From the NCBI RefSeq assembly GCF_000264995.1, contig NW_006767438.1:62001-126000 (forward strand): 64,000 nucleotides of DNA. The letters run 5' to 3'. The notes under the pieces were generated by a model. It did not search any database and was not told the DNA's origin. It saw nothing but the letters and a program-made list of their open reading frames with translations. Positions within the stretch are counted from its first letter, which is position 1; every line of letters starts with the position of its first letter. The stretch comes from Punctularia strigosozonata HHB-11173 SS5 (Eukaryota > Basidiomycota > Agaricomycetes > Corticiales > Punctulariaceae). Positions 2,230 through 22,863 of the stretch are shown one piece after another. Made by a program: the position numbers and the translations under genes.

Positions 2230-4421
2230 ATGCGAGCTTGGTTTGCCGCCTGTGCGCTGTCGGTCACCGCGTTGGCCGCCCGTGCCGCCGTGCTGGTCGA
2301 TTTCCAGGTTGCGCAGCCGCCTCCGCTCCCCAGGAATGCCAAACAATGTACCGTGGAGATCCTGACGTGCGTGGGTCGTTCATTATCTCGTGCGGGGCGC
2401 GAACACTAACTCTCTGCACGACGATCTGTCCATCAGCCGTACGTTCGGGTTCTCGTTTGGAGAGTGCGTCGGCGTTACTGTTGCGATCTAACTTCCTCGA
2501 CTGATCTCCGCCATCCCCCAGTCCGGAAATAGTTCAGTTTACGTGCGTGGGCATCGACTCCACCCTCTGCTCGATATGCTCGCTCACCTTCCACGCACAG
2601 ACCCCCTACCGATTGCGGTCCGGTGGGCTCATGGGCTGGAATCGAGCTCAACTTTACCGTCACGTCCAACGGGACCCAGTTCGACCGCCTCGGCATCTTC
2701 ACCTTCCAAAACGTCGAGAGTACGAGTATATATGACCGACTTCGTTCCGTTCGTTAACGGCCTCTTTTCCAGTCTGGAGGACGTCCACACCAGAGCCAAC
2801 TCGCGGCGACGGCATTATCTGGACCTACCTCAAAGATGTGACCCGCTTCCTCCCGCTGTTCTCCAAACCGGGAACATTCATATTGCAGCTGGATAATCTG
2901 TTGGAGACGGGTCTGGACGGCCAGTATGCCAGTACGTGGACGTCGTTTCGAATGTATCTGGGCATGAGCGCTCACACCCCACTCAGCAACCCTGCATGCT
3001 ACCTTCTTCGCGTCTTCTGCCATTCATCCACCGGCGCCTAGGGCCAACACCATTATCCCCATATCCACCTTGGCCAACAACACCGGTAACGATGCGTCAG
3101 TGCCTCCCACGTTTTCCGTGCGTACCAAGTCCCTCGTAGCACGGCCGTCTCTCTCATATTTCTCCACACAGCTGAACGTGACCGTACCACGCAACGCGAC
3201 CGCGATCTACGCGGAGCTCATCGCCTCCGGCAACGGCAACGAGGAATTCTGGTACTTCAACACCGCCGACGCCTTCGTGAACGACCTGCCCCCGGGGTTC
3301 ACCTTCCCGGACGGGCCCTTCCGCGAAGTGCGGCTGCTCGTCGACGGCGTGCTCGCGGGTGCCGCGTTCCCGTACCCGGTCGTTTTCACGGGCGGAATCC
3401 TGCCCACGGCCTGGCGGCCGATCACGTCCTACGGCGCGCTCGACCTGCCCTCGTACTTTCTCGACCTGACCCCCTTCGTGCCGGTACTTACCGACGGCCA
3501 GTCGCACACGATCTCGCTGGACGTGGCGAGCGTTGAGGACGATCGCGCCATCAACCAGAACTGGTTCGTATCCGGGTTGCTGCAAGTCGTTGAGGATCCG
3601 TCCGGGAAGCCGACGACGGGGAATATCACGCTGTACGACGCGCAGCCGTTCGCGGTGGGCAACTCGACGGGTAGTTTGGGCGCCAACGGGGATTTGAACG
3701 TGACGGTGACGGCGAGCCGGAATGTACATATCGAGTCGGAAATCATCAGCGGAAGCGGGGTCAAGACCAAGGTGGTGTTCACGCAGAACCTGGAGTATAC
3801 CAACCTGCAGCAGTACCTTGACAACTTGAACATCCAGGTCTGCTTGCGTCCCTTCCTTGTTGATGGTCAACGACTGACCTCAGTCCACCGTATAGAACGT
3901 GTTCCAGACGGCGACGGGCAAGGTTCTTTCGACCCACAATGGCATCCCGGTCGTTATCGATGACTACTCGTTCCCATTCAACGTCAACATCACCTCTGCC
4001 AACGCTGCGGGTACAGCCTGTACGTTATCTCTGTTATCTCCTCTGCTCTCTTATTCATTCGCGTCGTGCAGTTACCGCGGATTTTGATCACAGCTACAAC
4101 CGCCAAATCCTACCCGCCCCATTCATATTGGGCTCCACTATCCAGGAACGACAGCTCGCGGGCGGCTTTTTCAACGAGACGCCGTCAGGCAACACGGGGA
4201 ACGGGACGAGCACCAACACGTTCTCGTACGTGGATACTGCGGGGAATACGTACGACCGGGAGGTGAGCGCGGTGAACAACAACATCACCTCGGACCACCA
4301 GGGCGGCAGCCTAGCGCCAACGGCCGCTACGCGTTTCCCGGCGTTTGGGCCGTTACAGCTGAAGGGCTTCGACGCGCAGTTCAGGATGCCGGGGGACAGG
4401 AAGGTCACTGGGCGGGGATGA
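2230..4421 (+). CDS. secreted peptide N-glycosidase A-like amidase
   Basis: Peptide-N4-(N-acetyl-beta-glucosaminyl)asparagine amidase A removes N-glycans from glycopeptides in the secretory pathway or outside the cell. My model has nine exons: 2230-2366, 2437-2463, 2522-2542, 2601-2719, 2773-2931, 2987-3117, 3172-3837, 3896-4019 and 4072-4421, giving 577 residues with no frame error. The N-terminus MRAWFAACALSVTALAARAA is a signal peptide. Family blocks follow in order: FTPPTDCGP, NGTQFDRLGIFTF, then WRTSTPEPTRGDGIIWTYLK followed by DVTRF, and GQYATTLHATFFA. The long exon 7 carries the second jelly-roll half with several NxT/S sites. Two exons are only 27 and 21 nt long, and they restore the conserved block before FTPP. 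The TATA-like box at 2155 supports the start. Confidence 0.9.
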
Positions 4422-5223: not shown

Positions 5224-7048
5224 ATGTCCCCCTCACCCGTCGACGCGGTCGCCGTGGCCGAGCAGCTGCTCGAGCTCGTCAAGAAGCGCACCACCTCCCC
5301 GCCCGACAGCACCGAGTTCTACGATGAGGGCCTCGCCATCCAGGCCACCGCGGACAAGTACGACGCCACCCTTGCCTTCTCCGGCCCCGTACTCTCTCAC
5401 TGACGCGATGGTCCTGACAGATTGTTGCGCACCGTCATGGGACCCCTCGAGTACACTGCGCTCCTTGGAGGTGCCGTCCTCCCATCTGCCTGATGGCCCG
5501 GAAGCAGAGAAAGTCTAATGATAGATGTATGGGGACAGAGTCGTGCCAGGAGAGCCAGGCCCTGTACTTTGTGACCTCGTTCGGGATCGCGGACATCATC
5601 GGCGACGGTGCGCTCGGCATCGCAGAGATCAGCGAAAAGACAGGCGTGGACACGCAGTTCCTCGGTATGAAGCTCGTTTCACGCATGCTCGTGTGCTGAA
5701 ACGTCGGATTGCGACAGGCGTGGTGATGAGCTGCATGCTCGGCCGTGGCTACTTTGAGGAAGTGGAGACGAACGTGTACCGCAACAACGAACTATCCGCC
5801 GTGCTGCGCGACGACCACCCCGACTGCATGAAGAGCGCCATCGGCTTCGTGTGCGTATATCCTTCCGCATTCGACCGCGCTTCTTCCTCCTTTCGCGCTC
5901 TTCCCGCGGTCCCTTTCAATTGAGAGAATCGGGAGAGGGGGTACCTTCTACTTCCTTTCCGGGCACTGTAGCCATCTTACTTCCCGATCTGGGCTTCTTG
6001 CCCCCCCCCCCCTACCTTCTGTCTCGCGATATCCGTTTGTCTGGGTCTGTCCGCCGATTCGCCGATCTCACGCCCTTTCCTCCTCATCCAGGGCCGACGA
6101 GGGCTACAAGGCGGCCTCCCGCCTCATCGACGTCGCCAAGCTCCGCGGACCGTCCGGCTCCGCCGACGTTTCCGCCGACGCAGGCAAGGCGCGCGTTACC
6201 GGCACGAACCTCGCCTTCGGCTTCGACTGCTCCGTCTTCGACTGGATGGCCAAGCCCGAGCAGGCCTGGCGCGGCGAGCGCCTCGGGCGCGCGATGAAGC
6301 AGCTCCACGGCATGGCGAACCAGAACGTGCCAAAGGGTGCGTTCTCGTTCAGGTATTGTAGGAGCCAAGGAACAAGGAACTGATGATGGGGACGCGCAGA
6401 CTACGCGTGGAACGCGCTCAAGTCCCCGATCGTCGACTGCGGTGGCGGCATCGGCGCGCTCGAGATGGCGATTCTCAAGGACGAGAAGAACCTTAATCTC
6501 GAGTTCACCATCTTCGACATCCCGCAGACCGTCGAGAACGCGAAAAGGGTACGATGCGCGTTCCTGGCCGTTATCGCTCTCTCGTTTCGCTGATATTGAT
6601 TTGTTTTGCCATGCAGGCGTGGAGCGCGCTCCCCGAACGCTCCGCCTCCCGCGTCTCCTTCGCCCCGGGCAATTTCCTCGCCTCCAGCCTCCCCGACACC
6701 GGCATCCCGCTCGGCCGGCCGACGTACCTCATCCGCCACGTCCTCCACGACTGGACCGACGCCGAGGTGCTCGCCATCCTCCGCAACGTCCGCGCCGCGC
6801 TCGCGTCCTCGCCCTCCGAAGGCGTGCCGGTCGGCGAGCGCACGCTCGTGGTGTGCGAGATGCTGCTCCGGCCCGACTCGAGCCGCTTCGTAAGGACGAC
6901 GAGCATGCAGCTCCTCGCGCTCAACAACGGCATCACGCGCACGCTCGATGCCATGCGCGGCTTGATCGAGCAGGCGGGCTTTGTCGTCCGGAAGGTCCAC
7001 AGCATGCGCGCGGTGGACTCGATCATCGAGGCCGTGGTTCCGGTCTAG
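5224..7048 (+). CDS. SAM-dependent O-methyltransferase, plant COMT type
   Basis: It likely transfers a methyl group from S-adenosylmethionine to a hydroxyl of a small aromatic compound. I model seven exons: 5224-5357, 5421-5470, 5539-5664, 5718-5850, 6092-6336, 6400-6548 and 6617-7048, summing to 422 residues. The N-terminal dimerisation part includes LLRTVMGPLEYTALLGESCQ and ALYFVTSFGIADIIGDGALG. The SAM-binding glycine loop reads SPIVDCGGGIGALEMAIL, and the block RHVLHDWTDAEVLAIL carries the histidine used as catalytic base in this family. The protein ends IIEAVVPV. Intron 4 (5851-6091) is long for this window and contains a run of 12 C. The gene lies 7.7 kb from a quinone-type synthetase on the same strand, which makes a role in tailoring its product possible but unproven. 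Confidence 0.88.
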
Positions 7049-7949: not shown

Positions 7950-8788
7950 TTAGGACATGGCGTATGGCGCGTACTTCCAGTAGCCGGAGTAGCGCTTGGC
8001 GAGCATGTAGGGGATGACCACCTTGCGGAGCATCCAGGGCATGGGCGGCCAGGAGTCCTTCAATTCCGGAGGAGTGTGGCTGAAACGGTCGTGAGTCAGC
8101 CCGGAGACAGGGGGTCTTCCTCGACATGGCGCTGCAACGTACCTGCGCATGAAAGGCACGAGCAGGAAGGGGTCGCCGTGCGATTTGGCGTGCTTATCGA
8201 GCGCGAGGTTCAGGTCGAGAAGCTCCTTCTGGTCAAAGTCCTTCATGTTCTCGGGAGCGAGATGCGCCACCTCCTCGTCCAGGTGCTGGTACTGAGACAG
8301 GGGATGTCAGCGCCTTATCTCGCGATAACGTTGGAGCGACCTACGAGCGGATCCTTGAAGCCGGTGACGATCGCCTTCAGCTCCGCGGCGTCAAACTTGG
8401 ACGGGTCCGCTTTGGCCGCGGTCAGCTTCTCGGTCAGGGTCTGGAGCGAGGAGTGGATAAGCTTGTGCTGCTCCTGCTCTTGCGAAAAGTCGAGTTTGCG
8501 GTTCAGGAACGGGAACACAACCTCCTCTGGAGAGCTCCTCGTCAGCATATCGGGCGCCTCAGGATCATCAATCCGATCGCAGGAACCAGGGCGGTACTGA
8601 CCCTCCGCATCGTGGTGGCCCTCGATAGAGTCGACCCAGGCCTGGCAGTAGCCGATAAAGTTCTTGAGGTCGTCGAGCGGCGGGTTGTCGAGGTGGGAGA
8701 CGATGATGTCGTACCCAAACTTGAACGTGTTGTGGGCGTGGATCATGTTGTACTGGAGCATCTCCTCGACGGGTTGCTTGGACGCCAT
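7950..8788 (-). CDS. hemerythrin-like HHE domain protein
   Basis: Hemerythrin domains fold as a four-helix bundle that holds a non-haem di-iron centre binding O2 or sensing iron or redox state. Four exons (8788-8602, 8526-8345, 8291-8143, 8079-7950) give 215 residues in frame. Candidate ligands fall in the usual order: H17/H19 in NMIHAHNTF, the pair H58-H59 with E62-E64 in EGHHDAEEEVVFPFL, H83 and H87 in EQHKLIHSSL, and H126/E130/H133 in YQHLDEEVAHLAPE. The C-terminal 60 residues are rich in W, P, Y and K and may be a family-specific tail. No signal peptide is seen, so it is likely cytosolic. It is divergent from the seven-helix gene at 9437, with 648 bp between the starts. Confidence 0.85.
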
Positions 8789-14755: not shown

Positions 14756-17700
14756 ATGGCCCACGCTGCCACCCTCCCCGACCTCCTCCGCACCCGCGCC
14801 CGCGCGTCCACCAACTACATCGGCTTCCTCGCACCCGGCGACGCGCCCTCGACCACCCTCTCCTACGCCGACCTCTTCGCGCGTGCCGAGCGCTATGCTC
14901 GTGGCCTGCTCGCCTCCGGCCTCCAGCCGCATGCCTCCGACGTCGTGCTCGGTGTCTTCGAGGACCACGAGAGCTACGTCCTCCTCTTCTGGGGCTGCTG
15001 TCTCGGTCAGTGCAAACTTTGCTGCTCTCGTTCAACTCGCCCGTCTGCTGACGCCGCTGCTTCTCAGCTGGCATCCCATTCTGCCCGCTCGCTGCGCTGC
15101 ACCCGGATCCCAAGCGCCAGGCGGACCTTTTCGCGCATCTCCAGTCGCTCTTTGACGGCCCGCTGCTCGTCACCTCGCCCGCCCTCGCGGAGACGGTGAA
15201 CGCGCTCGCACCGACGCTTAAAATCAGCACCCTCGCCCAGCTCGACGCGAGCGAGGACGCCGCACCGCTCCCCGCGAGCTCGCCTTCGGCCGAGGAGCCC
15301 GTCTGCTACGTCCTGACGTCAGGTAAACGCGCCTTTCGTTCCCGAGGTCCGAACCGTTCGCTCACGGAACATCCCCCGCAGGCTCGACGGGCAAGCCCAA
15401 GGCCGTCTCCCTCAGGCACTCGCAGATCCTCGCCGCCTGCGCCGGCAAGAGCGCGCACCACGGCACCTCCGCCTCCTCGCGGTTCCTCAACTGGATCGCG
15501 TTCGACCACGTCGCGTCCATCACCGAGATCCACGTGCATGCCCTCCTCGTCGACGCCGTGCAGTATCACATCTCGCCGACGGCCATCATCGTCGACCCCA
15601 AGTCGCTCCTCGACCTCTGCTCCAAGCTCGAGATCACCTACTCCTTCGCGCCCAACTTCCTCATGGCCCGCATCCTCAAGGACGACGCGATCGCGCCCCT
15701 ACCGCCGTCGCTCGACCTGTCGCGTCTGTCGGCGTTTATCTCCGGTGGCGAGTCCGTCCCGATGCCTGTTGGCGTCGCGTTCGCGGATTTGCTCGAGCGC
15801 TTTGGAGCCAAGCGGAACGTCCTCCGCGCCGGCTTTGGCATGAGCGAGACCTGCGTAAGTACCCGGCGAGCAGCAAACGTCCCCAGGAGGTTTATTGATC
15901 TATTGGCAATCACAGGCCGGCTCTATCTACGACACGACGGATATCCCGCGCACGGTCGACCCTGCAGGCCCCGCCTACCTCAACCTTGGCACCTGCGTCC
16001 CGGGCATGTCGATGCGCGTCGTCTCCGCCACCGGCGGGCTTTGCGCTCCTGGCGAACCCGGCCAGCTGCACGTATCCGGCGCCAACGTCTTCACGCACTA
16101 CGTTCGCAACCCCTCCGCGACTTCCGAGGCGTTCACTCCGGACGGCTGGTTCGTCACTGGCGACCTTGGCTACCTCGACGTCTCGGGCCACCTGCACATG
16201 CTCGGCCGCGACAAGGAACTCGTCAACATCAACGGCGCCAAGGTGTCTTCCAAAGACGTCGAGACTTACCTCGATGACGCGAACCTGCCCGGCGGCGCGC
16301 CCGACAACCTGACCGCCGCGCCCGTGCGCATCCCCGGCGCGGACACCGAGACCTACCTCATCTTCTACAAGCGCGACCTGGCCGCGGACGAGGACCTGTC
16401 CCCGATACGCGCTCTGAACGACGCGATCCGCGACGCGTGCACGGTGCTCATCTCCGCCGCGCCGCACGCGGTGCTCCCGCTCCCGTCCTCGAGCTTCGTC
16501 GCCACCGCGCTCGGCAAGGTCTCCCGCGCGCAGCTCGCCAACGCCTACCTCCGCGGTGACTACGCCGCGATCGAGGATAAGTTCAAGGCGGCGGCCGAGG
16601 CCGGCGAGGCGCTCGACCTGACGGACCCGATCCAGGTGCTCGTGCGCGACGCGGTCGTGGACGTGCTCGAGCTCTCCCCCGGCGAGATCACGCACGCGAC
16701 GAACCTGTTCGACACCGGCGCGAGCTCGATGCACCTCATGCGGCTCAAGAAGGTCGTCGAAGAGCGGATGGAGATGCACGAGATCCCGACGATCGAGCTC
16801 CTCCGCCGGCCGCGCGTCGGCGCGCTCTGCGCCTTCCTCGCCTCGCTCCGCGACGAGCGCGCGGCCCACCCGCGCGAGGCGCACGTCTACCAGCCGCTCG
16901 TCTGCCTCGAGGCACAGGGCTCGAAGCCGCCGGTGTTCCTGATCCACCCCGGCGTGGGCGAGATCCTCGTGTTCCTCAACATGGCGCACCGGCTTCAGGA
17001 CGACCGCCCGGTGTACGCGATCCGCGCCAAGGGCTTCGACTACGACGACCAGCCGTTCAAGACGCTGGACGAGACCGTCGCCGTGTACGCGGACGCGATC
17101 GAGAAGGCGTACCCGGCGGGCCCTTACTACGTCGCGGGCTACAGCTACGGCGGCGCGATCGCGTTCCGGATCGCGCAGCGGCTCGAGGCGAAGGGCAAGA
17201 AGGTGGAATGGCTCGGTATCCTCAATCTGCCGCCGCACATCCAGTTCCGGATGCACGAGCTGTCGTGGACGGAGGTGCTGTTCAACGTCGCGATGTTCCT
17301 CTCCCTCTTCCCGCCGCAGGCCATCCCGGCGACGAAGGCCGAGTTCCGGACGGCGTTCCCGGGGATCGCCGGGGGAGACGCCGAGCCGTCGGACCCGCTG
17401 TCTCCGATCACGTGGCTGCTGTCGCGCGCGGACCAGGCCCGGCTGGCGGAGCTCGATCTGCAATTAGGGGCGTTCACGCGGTGGATCAAGGTCGCTTACG
17501 AAATCAACCGGACGGGACGCGAGTTCCTGCCATCAGGCAAGGTCGCGGGGGCCCTGACGACCGTGTTCTGCGCGGTCCCGCTCGAGAGCATGGGCACCCG
17601 CGAGGAGTATAAGAACGACAGGCTATCGCAGTGGGTCGACTTCACCGGCCCCCACTTTGAGCTCATCGACGTCGACGGCGAACACTACACCATGCTTTCC

Positions 17701-19052
17701 AAGGAGAACTCTGCCAGCTTTGCCGACAAGATGCGCGACGCGATGCACCGCGCCGAGGACGTCGCGAGCAAGCCTGCTGCTGCTCCCGTCATCGCCGAGA
17801 AGAAAAACTTTGACGAGGTGCCCGTGATCGACTTTTCGCTCGCCGAGAGCGATCCCGCCAAGTACTACGAGCAGCTCCGCTTCGCGCTCGAGGACGTTGG
17901 CTTTCTGGTACGCGCCCGTCGCTGCTCTGCGTAATTGCAGTCACGGGAACGCTGACGATGAACCGCGCAGGTGTTCTCAAACATCCCCGGCTTCGAGCAC
18001 GAGTTCCAGACCGAGGTGTTCGACGTCGCCCGCAAGGTGATGAGCAAGCCCCAGGAATGGAAGGACTCGCTCAGCACGGCCAACTCGTACTCGCTGCGCG
18101 GCTACTTCCGCGCCGACTCGCTCCCCGGCGTCCACAAGGTTCGGGCGATCTGATTTCCTATCTCGGTCTTTCGAATCGGCATCCTAATATGGACATTTGC
18201 AGGCGTACGCGGAGGCATACCGATTCGGTGCCGACTTGCCCGCTCCTGGCGAGGAAGCCCCGTTCTGGCTCAAGCTCCACGAAGGTATGGGTCCCACTCA
18301 TGCGCAGCTCACCATCCGCAAACCACTGATGGCCGGATCCAGGCCCGAACCAGTGGCCCAAGGAGGAAGACGTGCCCCACTTCCGCGAGCGGATGAACGC
18401 CCTCTTCGACCGCTACCACAAGCTCAACATGGACCTCAACCGGCACATCTGCAACCTCCTCGGCCTGCACGAGACCGGCCTCGACGAGTTCTTCCCCGCG
18501 CCGACGCCCGAGTTCAACTCCGCCATCTGGCACTACTTTGCCTGCACCCCCGAGATCCTCGCCGACGCCAAGGCCAAGGACGGCTTCGTCCAGGGCATGC
18601 ACGAGCACCGTGACCCCTCGACGTTCGTCACTTGCCTCATCCAGTCCCGCCCCGGCCTCCAGGTCCAGAACCACCAGGGCGCCTGGATCGACGTCCCCAT
18701 GGTCAAGGGCGGCGTCGTCTGCAACATCGGCATGCAGCTCATGAAGCTCACCGGCGGCAAGCTCGTCGCCACCACCCACCGCGTCAACACGCTCAAGATC
18801 GACGAGGACCGGTTCACGATCCCCTACGTGCTCTCCACCAAGCTCGAGAAGGAGATCGTGCCCCTCCCCCAGTTCGCCAACCCGGAGGCGGCCAAGGCCC
18901 ACATCGTCACCAACCAGAAGATCATCGCGCTCCAGGGCATCAAGGACCCGCTCCTCCGCAGCGGCTACGCCCGCCTCAGCCTCATGCCCGCCGCCGCTTC
19001 GCGCCTCTACCCCAAGGAGTTTGAGGAGGCCCACCAGCTCGGCATCGTCTAG
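14756..19052 (+). CDS. NRPS-like A-T-TE synthetase fused to a 2OG-Fe(II) dioxygenase
   Basis: A-T-TE synthetases of basidiomycetes activate aryl-pyruvates and join two of them into terphenylquinones such as atromentin or polyporic acid. Seven exons (14756-15005, 15068-15322, 15382-15854, 15916-17907, 17971-18138, 18203-18284, 18343-19052) give 1309 residues. Adenylation domain: TSGSTGKPKA at 167-176, GFGMSETC to 326, and GKVSR with K527. Thiolation domain: LFDTGASSMHLM with the likely phosphopantetheine serine S597. Thioesterase: GYSYGG with S736 and a downstream GEHYTM histidine, H916. From about 956 an isopenicillin-N-synthase-like domain begins (VPVIDFSLAESDPAKYYEQL) with an H1162-x-D1164, H1219 iron triad and R1230. 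The Psilocybe cubensis polyporic acid synthetase PpaA1 is reported to have a similar but inactive dioxygenase tail; here the metal ligands look intact. Substrate is not deduced. Confidence 0.92.
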
Positions 19053-19533: not shown

Positions 19534-22044
19534 TTAGAAGAGACCCTTGAGTCTCCCTTTGACAAACACCTTATCCAACGGAACGGCATTGACATCGGAG
19601 TCGCCGTTCCGCCACCGTTGTACTAGATCCTTCGCCTCCACCGGATTGACGTCCTTATCGCGTGTGCCGACGGTGATATGCAGCCGGCCCGCGACCTCCT
19701 TCGGTAGCTTGACCAAGAACGCCACGCCCTCCTCGTACGGATCCGGCACGTCCTTGGACACCGCGAGGTCTTCCACTGTGAGCGCCATTACGCGGTCGTC
19801 CCAAACAAGGTGGCCGAGCCGGAACGAGAACAGCGGCGGCTTTGTCGACGCGTGTAGTGTCGTACACCGACCCCATAGGTCCTTCTCGTGCGGGAGAGAT
19901 TTGGAGTGCACGATCGTGACATGCGGCCGCTTGGCGACGCGCTTCTGCTCGACGAGCTTGTCCCAGAACGCCCTGCCTTCCGCCGACACCTCCGCGCGCA
20001 CGATCGCGTCATCCACGACCTTTTCCACGTCCATCTCCGGCAACAGCCCAAAGTATCGCGGCGTCGAGGCGTCCTTCTTCCCCTTGTTCTTGTCGGGGTG
20101 CTTCACCGTCGGCGCGTACCCACGCGCGACTGTGAGGGCCTCCGCAATTCTGTCGTCGCTAGGAGGCGGTACGCCGAGCACGCGCACGCAGCCGTCGACA
20201 GCGCGGCGGAGCGCCTGCTCCGGGGTATCTTCCAGGCTCATCTCGATCGACACGTCGACCTCGTCATCCCCGAGCTCCTCGGAGCGCTCGAGGAACTGCC
20301 AGAGCACGTCTTCGTGCGCGCGCGCGAGCGGGTCTCCGCGCAGGCTCTGGTGGTTGTCTCCCCGCGCCAGGACGCGGTCGCCGCAGATGCGGTGGATCGT
20401 CGACGGCGGCTGGTCCAGCGCCCAGTTGAGCGCCATGAGCCGCACGGGCGGCTGCATGTGCTTTGTCGCGTCCCGGAGCGCAGTGCGGTGCATGCGCAGG
20501 TGGTTGTTTCTGTTTGATCATGAAAAAAATGCGTCGTCAACATGTGGACGGGAGGAGGCTCACTTGTCCGCGATGACGACGTCGTGGGTGCGCAGCAGAT
20601 TAACCACGTTCTTGACGAACGTCTGGCCCGCCTTTTTGCCCTGCACGTCGTCGCTCTGCGTGTGCCCGAAGCCAAACAGGTGCGAAAGCGCGACGGCGAT
20701 GCATGTTTTCCCGCATCCAGGTATTGCAACCGGCACAATGATCGTCTTCCCGAACTCCTTCTTCTCCTCCCTGTCATTCAGCCCGGCATCCGCGACCATC
20801 CGCGTAACCTCCTCCACCGCCGCCTCGCCCTTCTCGCTTTTCAAGTAGCGCAAGAACCGCTGACGGGTGGCAACGATACCCTTGTTGTTCTGGTATTCCT
20901 TGAACGCCGCCGGGTCCCTCTTGATCTCCTCCCGCACCCAGCGCACGTAAGCCTTCGTCTCCGCGCGCTTCATCTTCGACTTGGGTGGCTCCTTCCCGGC
21001 GAGGATCGCTCTCGTCACCTCGCGCCAGTCACGGTACATCATGTACGGCTCGTCGAATTTGACCTTGAAGAAGAAGGACGAGCCGGGCTCGTACGGCGAC
21101 CGGTCGCGCGTCGTGCGCCCGTCAGTGGGTGGCTCGGTGACGTGCGTCCGGACGACGAAGCCCTCGAGCGGCTCGCCGTTCCAAGACCCGGTCTTGCCGA
21201 TCTCGTCCGTGAACGCTTTCACGTCCGGGATGGAGCGCAGCACGGTGGACTTCGTCGGGATGAACCCCCATTCGTGCGCGAACTTTTCGACGGTCTCGGG
21301 CTGCTCGGTCTTAAAGTGCCGCGAGTTGGCGTTGAGGCCGTGAAGGTGTAATCCGGTGACTTCTGGACCGTAGGGGAGGACGTGCTCTTCGAAGGAGTCG
21401 TCGCAGAGCTGAGGGGCGGTGTCAGTGTGGGTGCACGCGAAACCCGATAAACAGGCGCACCTCTGCTACCGCAGTCCAGTTCTTCTCCCAGAGAGTTCGC
21501 GCGAGTTCCTCGGGCGCTTTGCCCTTCGACGCAAGGTGCTTATGTAGCCACTGTTCGCCGACTTTTGCGTGTGGCGAATCAACCGAGTGCTTGGACGTGA
21601 CGAGCAGCTTGTCTGCGGTGAGGGCGGCAATGAAGATGATGCATCCATTGGACTTGAGGGTGAGCGTGTAAGGCGAACCTGTATGCCTCTCGAGCGCAGT
21701 CCACTGTCAGTCGAGTCAGTTGATCCGAGTAGAAGGTCGCGTGCACAGCTACACACCGTGTTCCACGGGACCTCGCCGATGTTGAAGAACTTGTCGTATC
21801 CTCTGGCGACGATCTTGTACTTGTCCCCGATTTGACGCGTAAACAACCCGCGGGCAAGTGTCGGGAACGGGCTGGGAATGTCGTAGTATTTGAACTCGTT
21901 CATCTTCCAGCTGCTGATTTTGATCGTCGGGTCTGCGGGGGCCGGGTGTTCGGACGCGCGCACGAGCTTTCTGTTCTTATTCGAGAGCGCGTACAGATCC
22001 AAGACGAGCTGCGAGTCCTCTTCCGAGATGTGGGAGGCAGCCAT
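19534..22044 (-). CDS. TRL1: tRNA ligase with ligase, kinase and phosphodiesterase domains
   Basis: Fungal Trl1 heals and seals tRNA halves after intron removal and also joins HAC1-type mRNA in the unfolded protein response. Four exons (22044-21757, 21703-21461, 21408-20564, 20509-19534) give 783 residues. Ligase domain: LKSNGC holds the expected AMP-accepting lysine (K113), and LEGFVVRTH and FFFKVKF are later nucleotidyltransferase motifs. The kinase P-loop IPGCGKT lies near residue 407, with QSDDV after it. The phosphodiesterase part has the paired H-x-T motifs HVTIVHS and HITVGT near residues 655 and 736. All three domains look complete. I chose the start MAASHISEED; the frame stays open for about 90 codons upstream and contains a basic, S/T/L-rich stretch. 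Confidence 0.95.
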
Positions 22045-22863
22045 GGTCGTCACTAGTCGTCGTGGCAGGCTAGTCACGGTGGGTCGTAAGAGCGGGCGCA
22101 AGCCCAGTAAGCTTGTAGTACGGACTGTTATGGTGATAGTCGTGCTCTCGAGCTGAGGCGAGCGAGGGGGTTGTGTATGTTTTTGTGGTTTGTCGTAGAT
22201 GAAGACATGATCACTGAGTCGCGTATGCAGCGTGGCGGCACCGGAAGTCGAATCATCCGACGGAGTCTGTATCTTCAGTATCCGATTTGAGGACCGGTGA
22301 AGGGCTTTGCGTCCAACCACGGTGACCCACCACTCTCCGGACGCTACAAATCTATGCTATACCCAAATATCTGCAGCAACATTTCCCGTCAACAACAGGC
22401 GAAACCCACTGAGACTTGCATATGGGAAAGTGGCGACATCGTTGACTACTTTGCGGCGAACGCAGACCGACTCTGGAGCGGGTATATTCATCATCAACCT
22501 CAGAAGCCGCACTCGGTGGATATTCCAACGACCCAATCATGATGTAAACCTTGCAGAGCTGAACGCATACCACCTATTCCCATATCCTTTGCTTCCGCCG
22601 AGTTAAGCTGCTTCACGACGACCGGCGACCATCACTAGTCCTGTGAAATCGGAGAGGGCTGTGATTCGGGCCCGGGCTATTCTTTACTGGAATGCACGAC
22701 TGCGCTGCGATGCTATTCCCCTTCCGTCGGTACTGCATTGGAACGACTGTTGGAAGGCGTTACCTGCTCTTTTGCATTCTTCGGACTCTGCGGTCCAGCG
22801 GCTGGCCGCCTTACATTCTTCGTCTGCTTTTATTATACTCGCTTTTTTTTCCGTTTGCGCTAT
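22045..22863. promoter_or_regulatory. divergent promoter region, TRL1 and DUF3433 gene
   Basis: The two flanking genes are transcribed away from each other. The only notable coding potential is the open extension of the TRL1 frame up to about 22320. TATATGGAGGAG sits directly at the right-hand start codon, so the promoter of that gene lies to its left. Confidence 0.4.

Follow-up and report, generated by a model that had tools for sequence, protein, structure and literature searches.

Organization of the locus

The window, meaning the whole 64,000-nucleotide stretch of DNA analysed here, corresponds to bases 62001-126000 of contig 6 in a genome of 33.6 Mb. Between positions 14756 and 19052, its forward strand carries seven exons predicted to splice into a chain of 1309 amino acids with no internal stop. 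Translation of these exons bore out the single 1309-codon frame proposed in an initial annotation, with the start, stop, and length that it had claimed. The six introns, all GT...AG, measure 58-64 bases (15006-15067, 15323-15381, 15855-15915, 17908-17970, 18139-18202, and 18285-18342) and separate the following exons:

14756-15005, + strand, exon 1, GT-AG splicing
15068-15322, + strand, exon 2, GT-AG splicing
15382-15854, + strand, exon 3, GT-AG splicing
15916-17907, + strand, exon 4, GT-AG splicing, encodes residues 327-990
17971-18138, + strand, exon 5, GT-AG splicing
18203-18284, + strand, exon 6, GT-AG splicing
18343-19052, + strand, exon 7, GT-AG splicing, encodes residues 1075-1309

Along the chain, the successive Pfam domains are AMP-binding, PP-binding, Thioesterase, DIOX_N, and 2OG-FeII_Oxy. 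All the domains of the fusion previously proposed, in which an A-T-TE synthetase is joined to a dioxygenase, are thus found in one polypeptide:

14756-16542, + strand, adenylation (A) domain, residues ~1-535, in exons 1-3 and the start of exon 4; end approximate
16642-16839, + strand, thiolation (T) domain, residues 569-634, Pfam PP-binding E 3e-5, carrier Ser597
16858-17757, + strand, thioesterase (TE) domain, residues ~641-940, with Ser736, Asn763, and His916; limits approximate
17758-17808, + strand, TE-D linker, residues ~941-957, in the exon 4 frame, which is free of stops and introns over 15916-17907; limits approximate
17809-19052, + strand, dioxygenase (D) domain, residues ~958-1309, isopenicillin-N-synthase-like 2OG-Fe(II) dioxygenase with H1162, D1164, H1219, and R1230

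Exon 4 spans the late A domain, T, TE, and the start of DIOX_N, and a frame of its own base composition would stay open by chance with a probability of about 7e-7. Because the joint between TE and D sits within this single exon, no assumed splice site is needed to connect them. Third-position GC content differs little between TE (0.923) and D (0.943), whereas the 17 codons taken as the linker have 0.706. An erroneous joining of two neighbouring genes is highly improbable, as no stop or intron interrupts the joint and as a cDNA has been cloned for ppaA1 of Psilocybe cubensis, whose predicted product has this set of domains too (PMC10316625). At the level of the gene model, the A-T-TE-D fusion is real.

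Genomic context

The neighbourhood was surveyed by a Pfam scan of 40 window fragments selected from among the longer reading frames, an approach from which short or heavily spliced genes may escape. The following genes were recognized around the fusion gene:

2231-4420, + strand, upstream, PNGase A-type glycoamidase gene (PF12222, E 7.2e-63 on 2968-3960; limits by eye)
5224-7048, + strand, ~7.7 kb upstream, O-methyltransferase gene (Methyltransf_2, E 6e-12 on 6497-7045; limits by eye)
7955-8788, - strand, upstream, hemerythrin-domain protein (PF01814, E 8e-11; exons joined by eye)
19537-22356, - strand, closest gene on the downstream side in the scanned set, a fungal tRNA ligase split over three reading-frame pieces
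38-42 kb downstream, two aldo/keto reductase fragments (Pfam), possible tailoring genes

A membrane protein gene, recognized by eye only, also lies upstream, and DUF3433 fragments lie downstream. The O-methyltransferase is a candidate tailoring partner. In the 40 fragments, Pfam recognized no P450, FAD monooxygenase, or aminotransferase. There is no clear cluster, and the neighbourhood therefore gives no hint of the product beyond possible methylation.

One search of the genome found no second copy of the synthetase; its eight matches outside the locus are fragments of 28-42% identity. The same genome encodes a manganese peroxidase that matches a solved manganese peroxidase with an E value of 1.7e-151, which suggests that the host is a white-rot basidiomycete.

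The A, T, and TE domains

Pfam AMP-binding covers residues 31-388 of the A domain (E 9.2e-41), whose best solved relatives are McyG (4r0m) and 6ulx/6ulw, and Pfam Thioesterase covers residues 665-767 (E 2.7e-24). The 25 NCBIfam matches listed for exon 4 all fell below cut-offs and were of a general adenylate-forming or NRPS/PKS type; the D domain had none. The A-T-TE core is 38% identical to two bacterial synthetases. It was compared with the best 80 of 354 bacterial relatives, in all 80 of which the carrier Ser597 is aligned with serine; S736 and H916 of the TE domain are likewise found in 80/80 of this set. The third TE residue, position 763 in an NLPPH motif, is Asn in 75 and Asp in 5 of the same best 80 of 354. 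Other TE families have a catalytic Asp at the place of this Asn. Furanone makers are among the bacterial relatives that share the A and TE residues, so that the product of the TE domain does not follow from the positions compared.

Residues V212, A213, I288, and G290 occupy columns of the A-domain code, as assigned by motif. In GrsA numbering, V212 would be the first code position and I288, placed by a LITAG-like motif, the fifth. At the fifth, the best 80 of 354 bacterial relatives have Ile (43), Val (36), or Leu (1). With V212 first and I288 at position 5, the chain carries the pattern of a PpaA1-type polyporic acid synthetase (Val first, Ile or Val fifth), insofar as the motifs assign the columns correctly. 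Ile or Val at position 5 has been tied to phenylpyruvate, and Asn to 4-hydroxyphenylpyruvate (PMC10316625). This position is not strictly decisive: swaps in PpaA1 and NPS3 merely relaxed specificity, and a swap in CorA was without effect (PMC10316625).

The dioxygenase domain

The D domain matches DIOX_N at residues 961-1081 (E 1.5e-14) and 2OG-FeII_Oxy at residues 1156-1236 (E 2.3e-12; 2.2e-13 for exon 7 alone). Among solved structures it is closest to 9ovh (E 7.2e-25) and thymine-7-hydroxylase (T7H; 5c3p, E 2.4e-17), and TropC (6xjj, E 4.1e-13) comes next among distinct solved molecules. Residues were compared across 16 relatives, a small set hand-picked for spread that combines 12 bacterial sequences (two from Pantoea) with 4 of 44 solved chains. 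The bacterial members were drawn from a tblastn search of plasmids (E 1e-10; 171 records, 12 used), in which identity reached at most 31.7% among the 30 of 171 matches listed. When prokaryote genomes were scanned with D alone, no relative could be confirmed.

The initial annotation had placed H1162, D1164, H1219, and R1230 at the iron and 2-oxoglutarate sites, and the alignment agrees: these residues, together with Y1138 and N1201, match all 16 relatives. The 2-His-1-Asp iron triad is present as in every relative compared. In the RxS motif for 2-oxoglutarate, the Arg is R1230, and the Thr reported two residues further on is also there (T1232; Ser in 16/16). Other positions depart from these relatives. 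V1236, six residues after the Arg, stands where all 16 relatives have Phe; F1139, after the HY pair, replaces a Pro found in 15/16; M1204, after NxG, replaces Asp or Glu in 15/16; and S1166, after HxDx, replaces Gly in 13/16. P1165 has no counterpart among the 16 relatives, of which eight have an aromatic residue in this column and eight do not. Since the column varies in this way, the missing aromatic is weak evidence when taken alone. As read from the alignment, the metal core of D is intact and its surroundings are altered. A single-sequence structure prediction of exon 7 alone (residues 1075-1309) gave a mean pLDDT of 38.8 and a pTM of 0.26, too poor for viewing the pocket or for a search by fold.

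A possible stand-alone relative of D is encoded in the same genome, on contig 3 (2801831-2805199), with 37% identity over D residues 2-121. Identity across its matches is 35-37%, in the N-terminal part only. About 1 kb downstream of this match, a frame reads R-Y-S-I-P-F-F, with the Ser and the Phe, and we infer that the match and the frame belong to one gene.

Comparison with PpaA1 and PpaA2

The closest parallel is PpaA1 of Psilocybe cubensis (PMC10316625). PpaA1 has the same A-T-TE-D order and a near-equal length (1333 versus 1309 amino acids). Its iron-motif residues H1186, D1188, and H1243 are intact, in the pattern HxD(x)nH, and P1189 and V1260 replace two aromatic residues that are crucial for substrate binding in T7H, V1260 lying at the position of T7H F292 (PMC10316625). 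Each of these five numbers exceeds by 24 that of its counterpart here (H1162, D1164, P1165, H1219, and V1236), and in each chain the Val is followed by 73 more residues. The two D domains are therefore identical at all five comparable residues, these being only the residues named in PMC10316625. Pro and Val are both shared with PpaA1 and each is absent from its column in all 16 relatives, which suggests common descent.

The two enzymes also differ. PpaA1 has Val302 at code position 5 in place of Ile288, and the spacing from carrier Ser to HxD is off by seven residues. Eight and nine introns are predicted in ppaA1 and ppaA2, compared with six here, and Psilocybe cubensis has both genes, compared with the one copy found in the present genome.

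PpaA1 had been named earlier as the one precedent for such a protein. The architecture justifies the comparison, but PpaA1 is not a sole case, as PpaA2, also of near-equal length, is a second protein with the A-T-TE-D order, the expression of which yielded no product (PMC10316625). The earlier account had also implied that an intact iron site sets the present protein apart from PpaA1. This contrast fails because the two D domains agree at all five comparable residues, and PpaA1 too has HxD...H (PMC10316625).

The role of D has been addressed by experiment in PpaA1. Polyporic acid is formed with or without the domain (PMC10316625). The Asp1188Ala and His1243Ala variants, a triple exchange, and a protein lacking D altogether continued to yield polyporic acid along with phlebiopsins, the latter being products into which the Aspergillus hosts convert polyporic acid by themselves, and fusion of the PpaA1 D domain to CorA changed nothing (PMC10316625). 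That the PpaA1 D domain is inactive was deduced from these unchanged products in Aspergillus hosts, and its authors wrote that the function of D deserves more study (PMC10316625).

Proposed function and alternatives

The gene model, the domain order, and the catalytic and pocket residues, all of which are observed, are best explained by a PpaA1-type A-T-TE-D synthetase that probably converts phenylpyruvate to polyporic acid, with D most likely adding no oxidation of the quinone; it is the substrate, the product, and the lack of effect of D that we infer. In the proposed mechanism, the A domain would activate phenylpyruvate by adenylation, and the T domain would hold it as a thioester on Ser597. 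The TE domain would then condense two such units through two condensations of the Claisen/Dieckmann type and release polyporic acid. The D domain would most likely be a passenger in polyporic acid formation, with the core that its family uses for iron and 2-oxoglutarate retained and the substrate pocket altered, two of the changes being common to PpaA1. Of the interpretation first given to this locus, the fusion, the four residues, and the PpaA1 precedent stand, and the intact iron site as a difference from PpaA1 does not.

It is possible, if clearly less probable, that D is an active enzyme or a metal-binding regulator whose substrate, for example a tailored derivative of polyporic acid, is absent from Aspergillus hosts. 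The metal triad and the Pro and Val changes are common to PpaA1, from Psilocybe (Agaricales), and to the manganese-peroxidase fungus studied here, and ligands should tend to disappear from a dead domain; that three metal ligands should be kept in two separate fungi seems odd for such a domain. That both proteins combine this metal site with this altered pocket is the single intriguing point of the analysis, and the PpaA1 authors' call for further study of D points the same way (PMC10316625). Against this reading, there is no positive sign of turnover, only two sequences are concerned, and the tailoring candidates among the 40 window fragments scanned are limited to the O-methyltransferase and the aldo/keto reductase fragments. 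A narrower version is somewhat more speculative still: D might function as an oxygenase whose pocket is unusual, and two or more fungal lineages might have retained it along with its iron site for a native substrate, either derived from polyporic acid or carrier-bound, that Aspergillus lacks.

That D is an active 2OG oxygenase which oxidizes the quinone of its own chain to an undescribed product, as first suggested, is unlikely. In its favour, six residues are shared with all 16 relatives, T1232 is a conservative replacement for Ser, half of the relatives likewise do without an aromatic residue in the P1165 column, and the similar third-position GC contents of D and TE are consistent with a maintained coding sequence. 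However, P1165 and V1236 are the same substitutions as in PpaA1, F1139, M1204, and S1166 deviate from residues that are near-invariant among the relatives, and mutation or removal of the PpaA1 D domain caused no visible change in Aspergillus, nor did its fusion to CorA (PMC10316625). Because the PpaA1 iron site is also intact, the pocket substitutions are shared, and further near-invariant positions are changed, an undescribed oxidized quinone would not appear to be favoured over the PpaA1 outcome by any of the evidence assembled here.

It is equally doubtful that the A-T-TE core makes something other than polyporic acid, such as atromentin, a furanone, or an indolyl quinone. The TE residues S, N, and H are common to bacterial synthetases, which make several different products. 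In addition, the position 5 rule is a correlation, and the swaps in PpaA1, NPS3, and CorA did not show it to be decisive (PMC10316625). On the other hand, I288 is the state found in CorA (Ile298), and PpaA1, which has the same architecture, makes polyporic acid (PMC10316625).

Relation to other known systems

The fusion protein is best read as a further synthetase of the PpaA1 kind, and it extends the A-T-TE-D architecture to a second lineage, Psilocybe being the sole other in the literature searched. No such synthetase outside Psilocybe was described in that literature, from which subscription papers were mostly excluded, or in the matched passages of PMC12105029, PMC8403587, PMC9047271, PMC9603100, and PMC11046786.

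The polyporic acid synthetases CorA of Terana caerulea and HapA1/HapA2 of Hapalopilus rutilans share the A-T-TE core but lack D, and CorA also shares Ile at code position 5 (PMC10316625). Atromentin synthetases, such as NPS3 of Serpula lacrymans, follow the same A-T-TE logic, but they lack D and carry Asn in the fifth code position (PMC10316625). The bacterial A-T-TE relatives, mostly from Streptomyces and Burkholderia, have the same catalytic residues at ~34-39% core identity. In contrast to the fungal fusion, 79 of the best 80 of 354 reach a stop within 40 codons past the matched core, and the remaining one runs into a contig end, leaving its C-terminus unseen. A search of these 80 loci with D gave one match only, at E 0.66. 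Thymine-7-hydroxylase (5c3p) and TropC (6xjj) belong to the sequence family of D and have the same iron ligands and 2-oxoglutarate arginine, but they are stand-alone enzymes of 27-28% identity with aromatic residues in place of Pro1165 and Val1236. As the metal ligands and the Pro and Val changes recur in the present protein and in PpaA1, the purpose of the fourth domain can be tested by comparing both enzymes, native hosts included.
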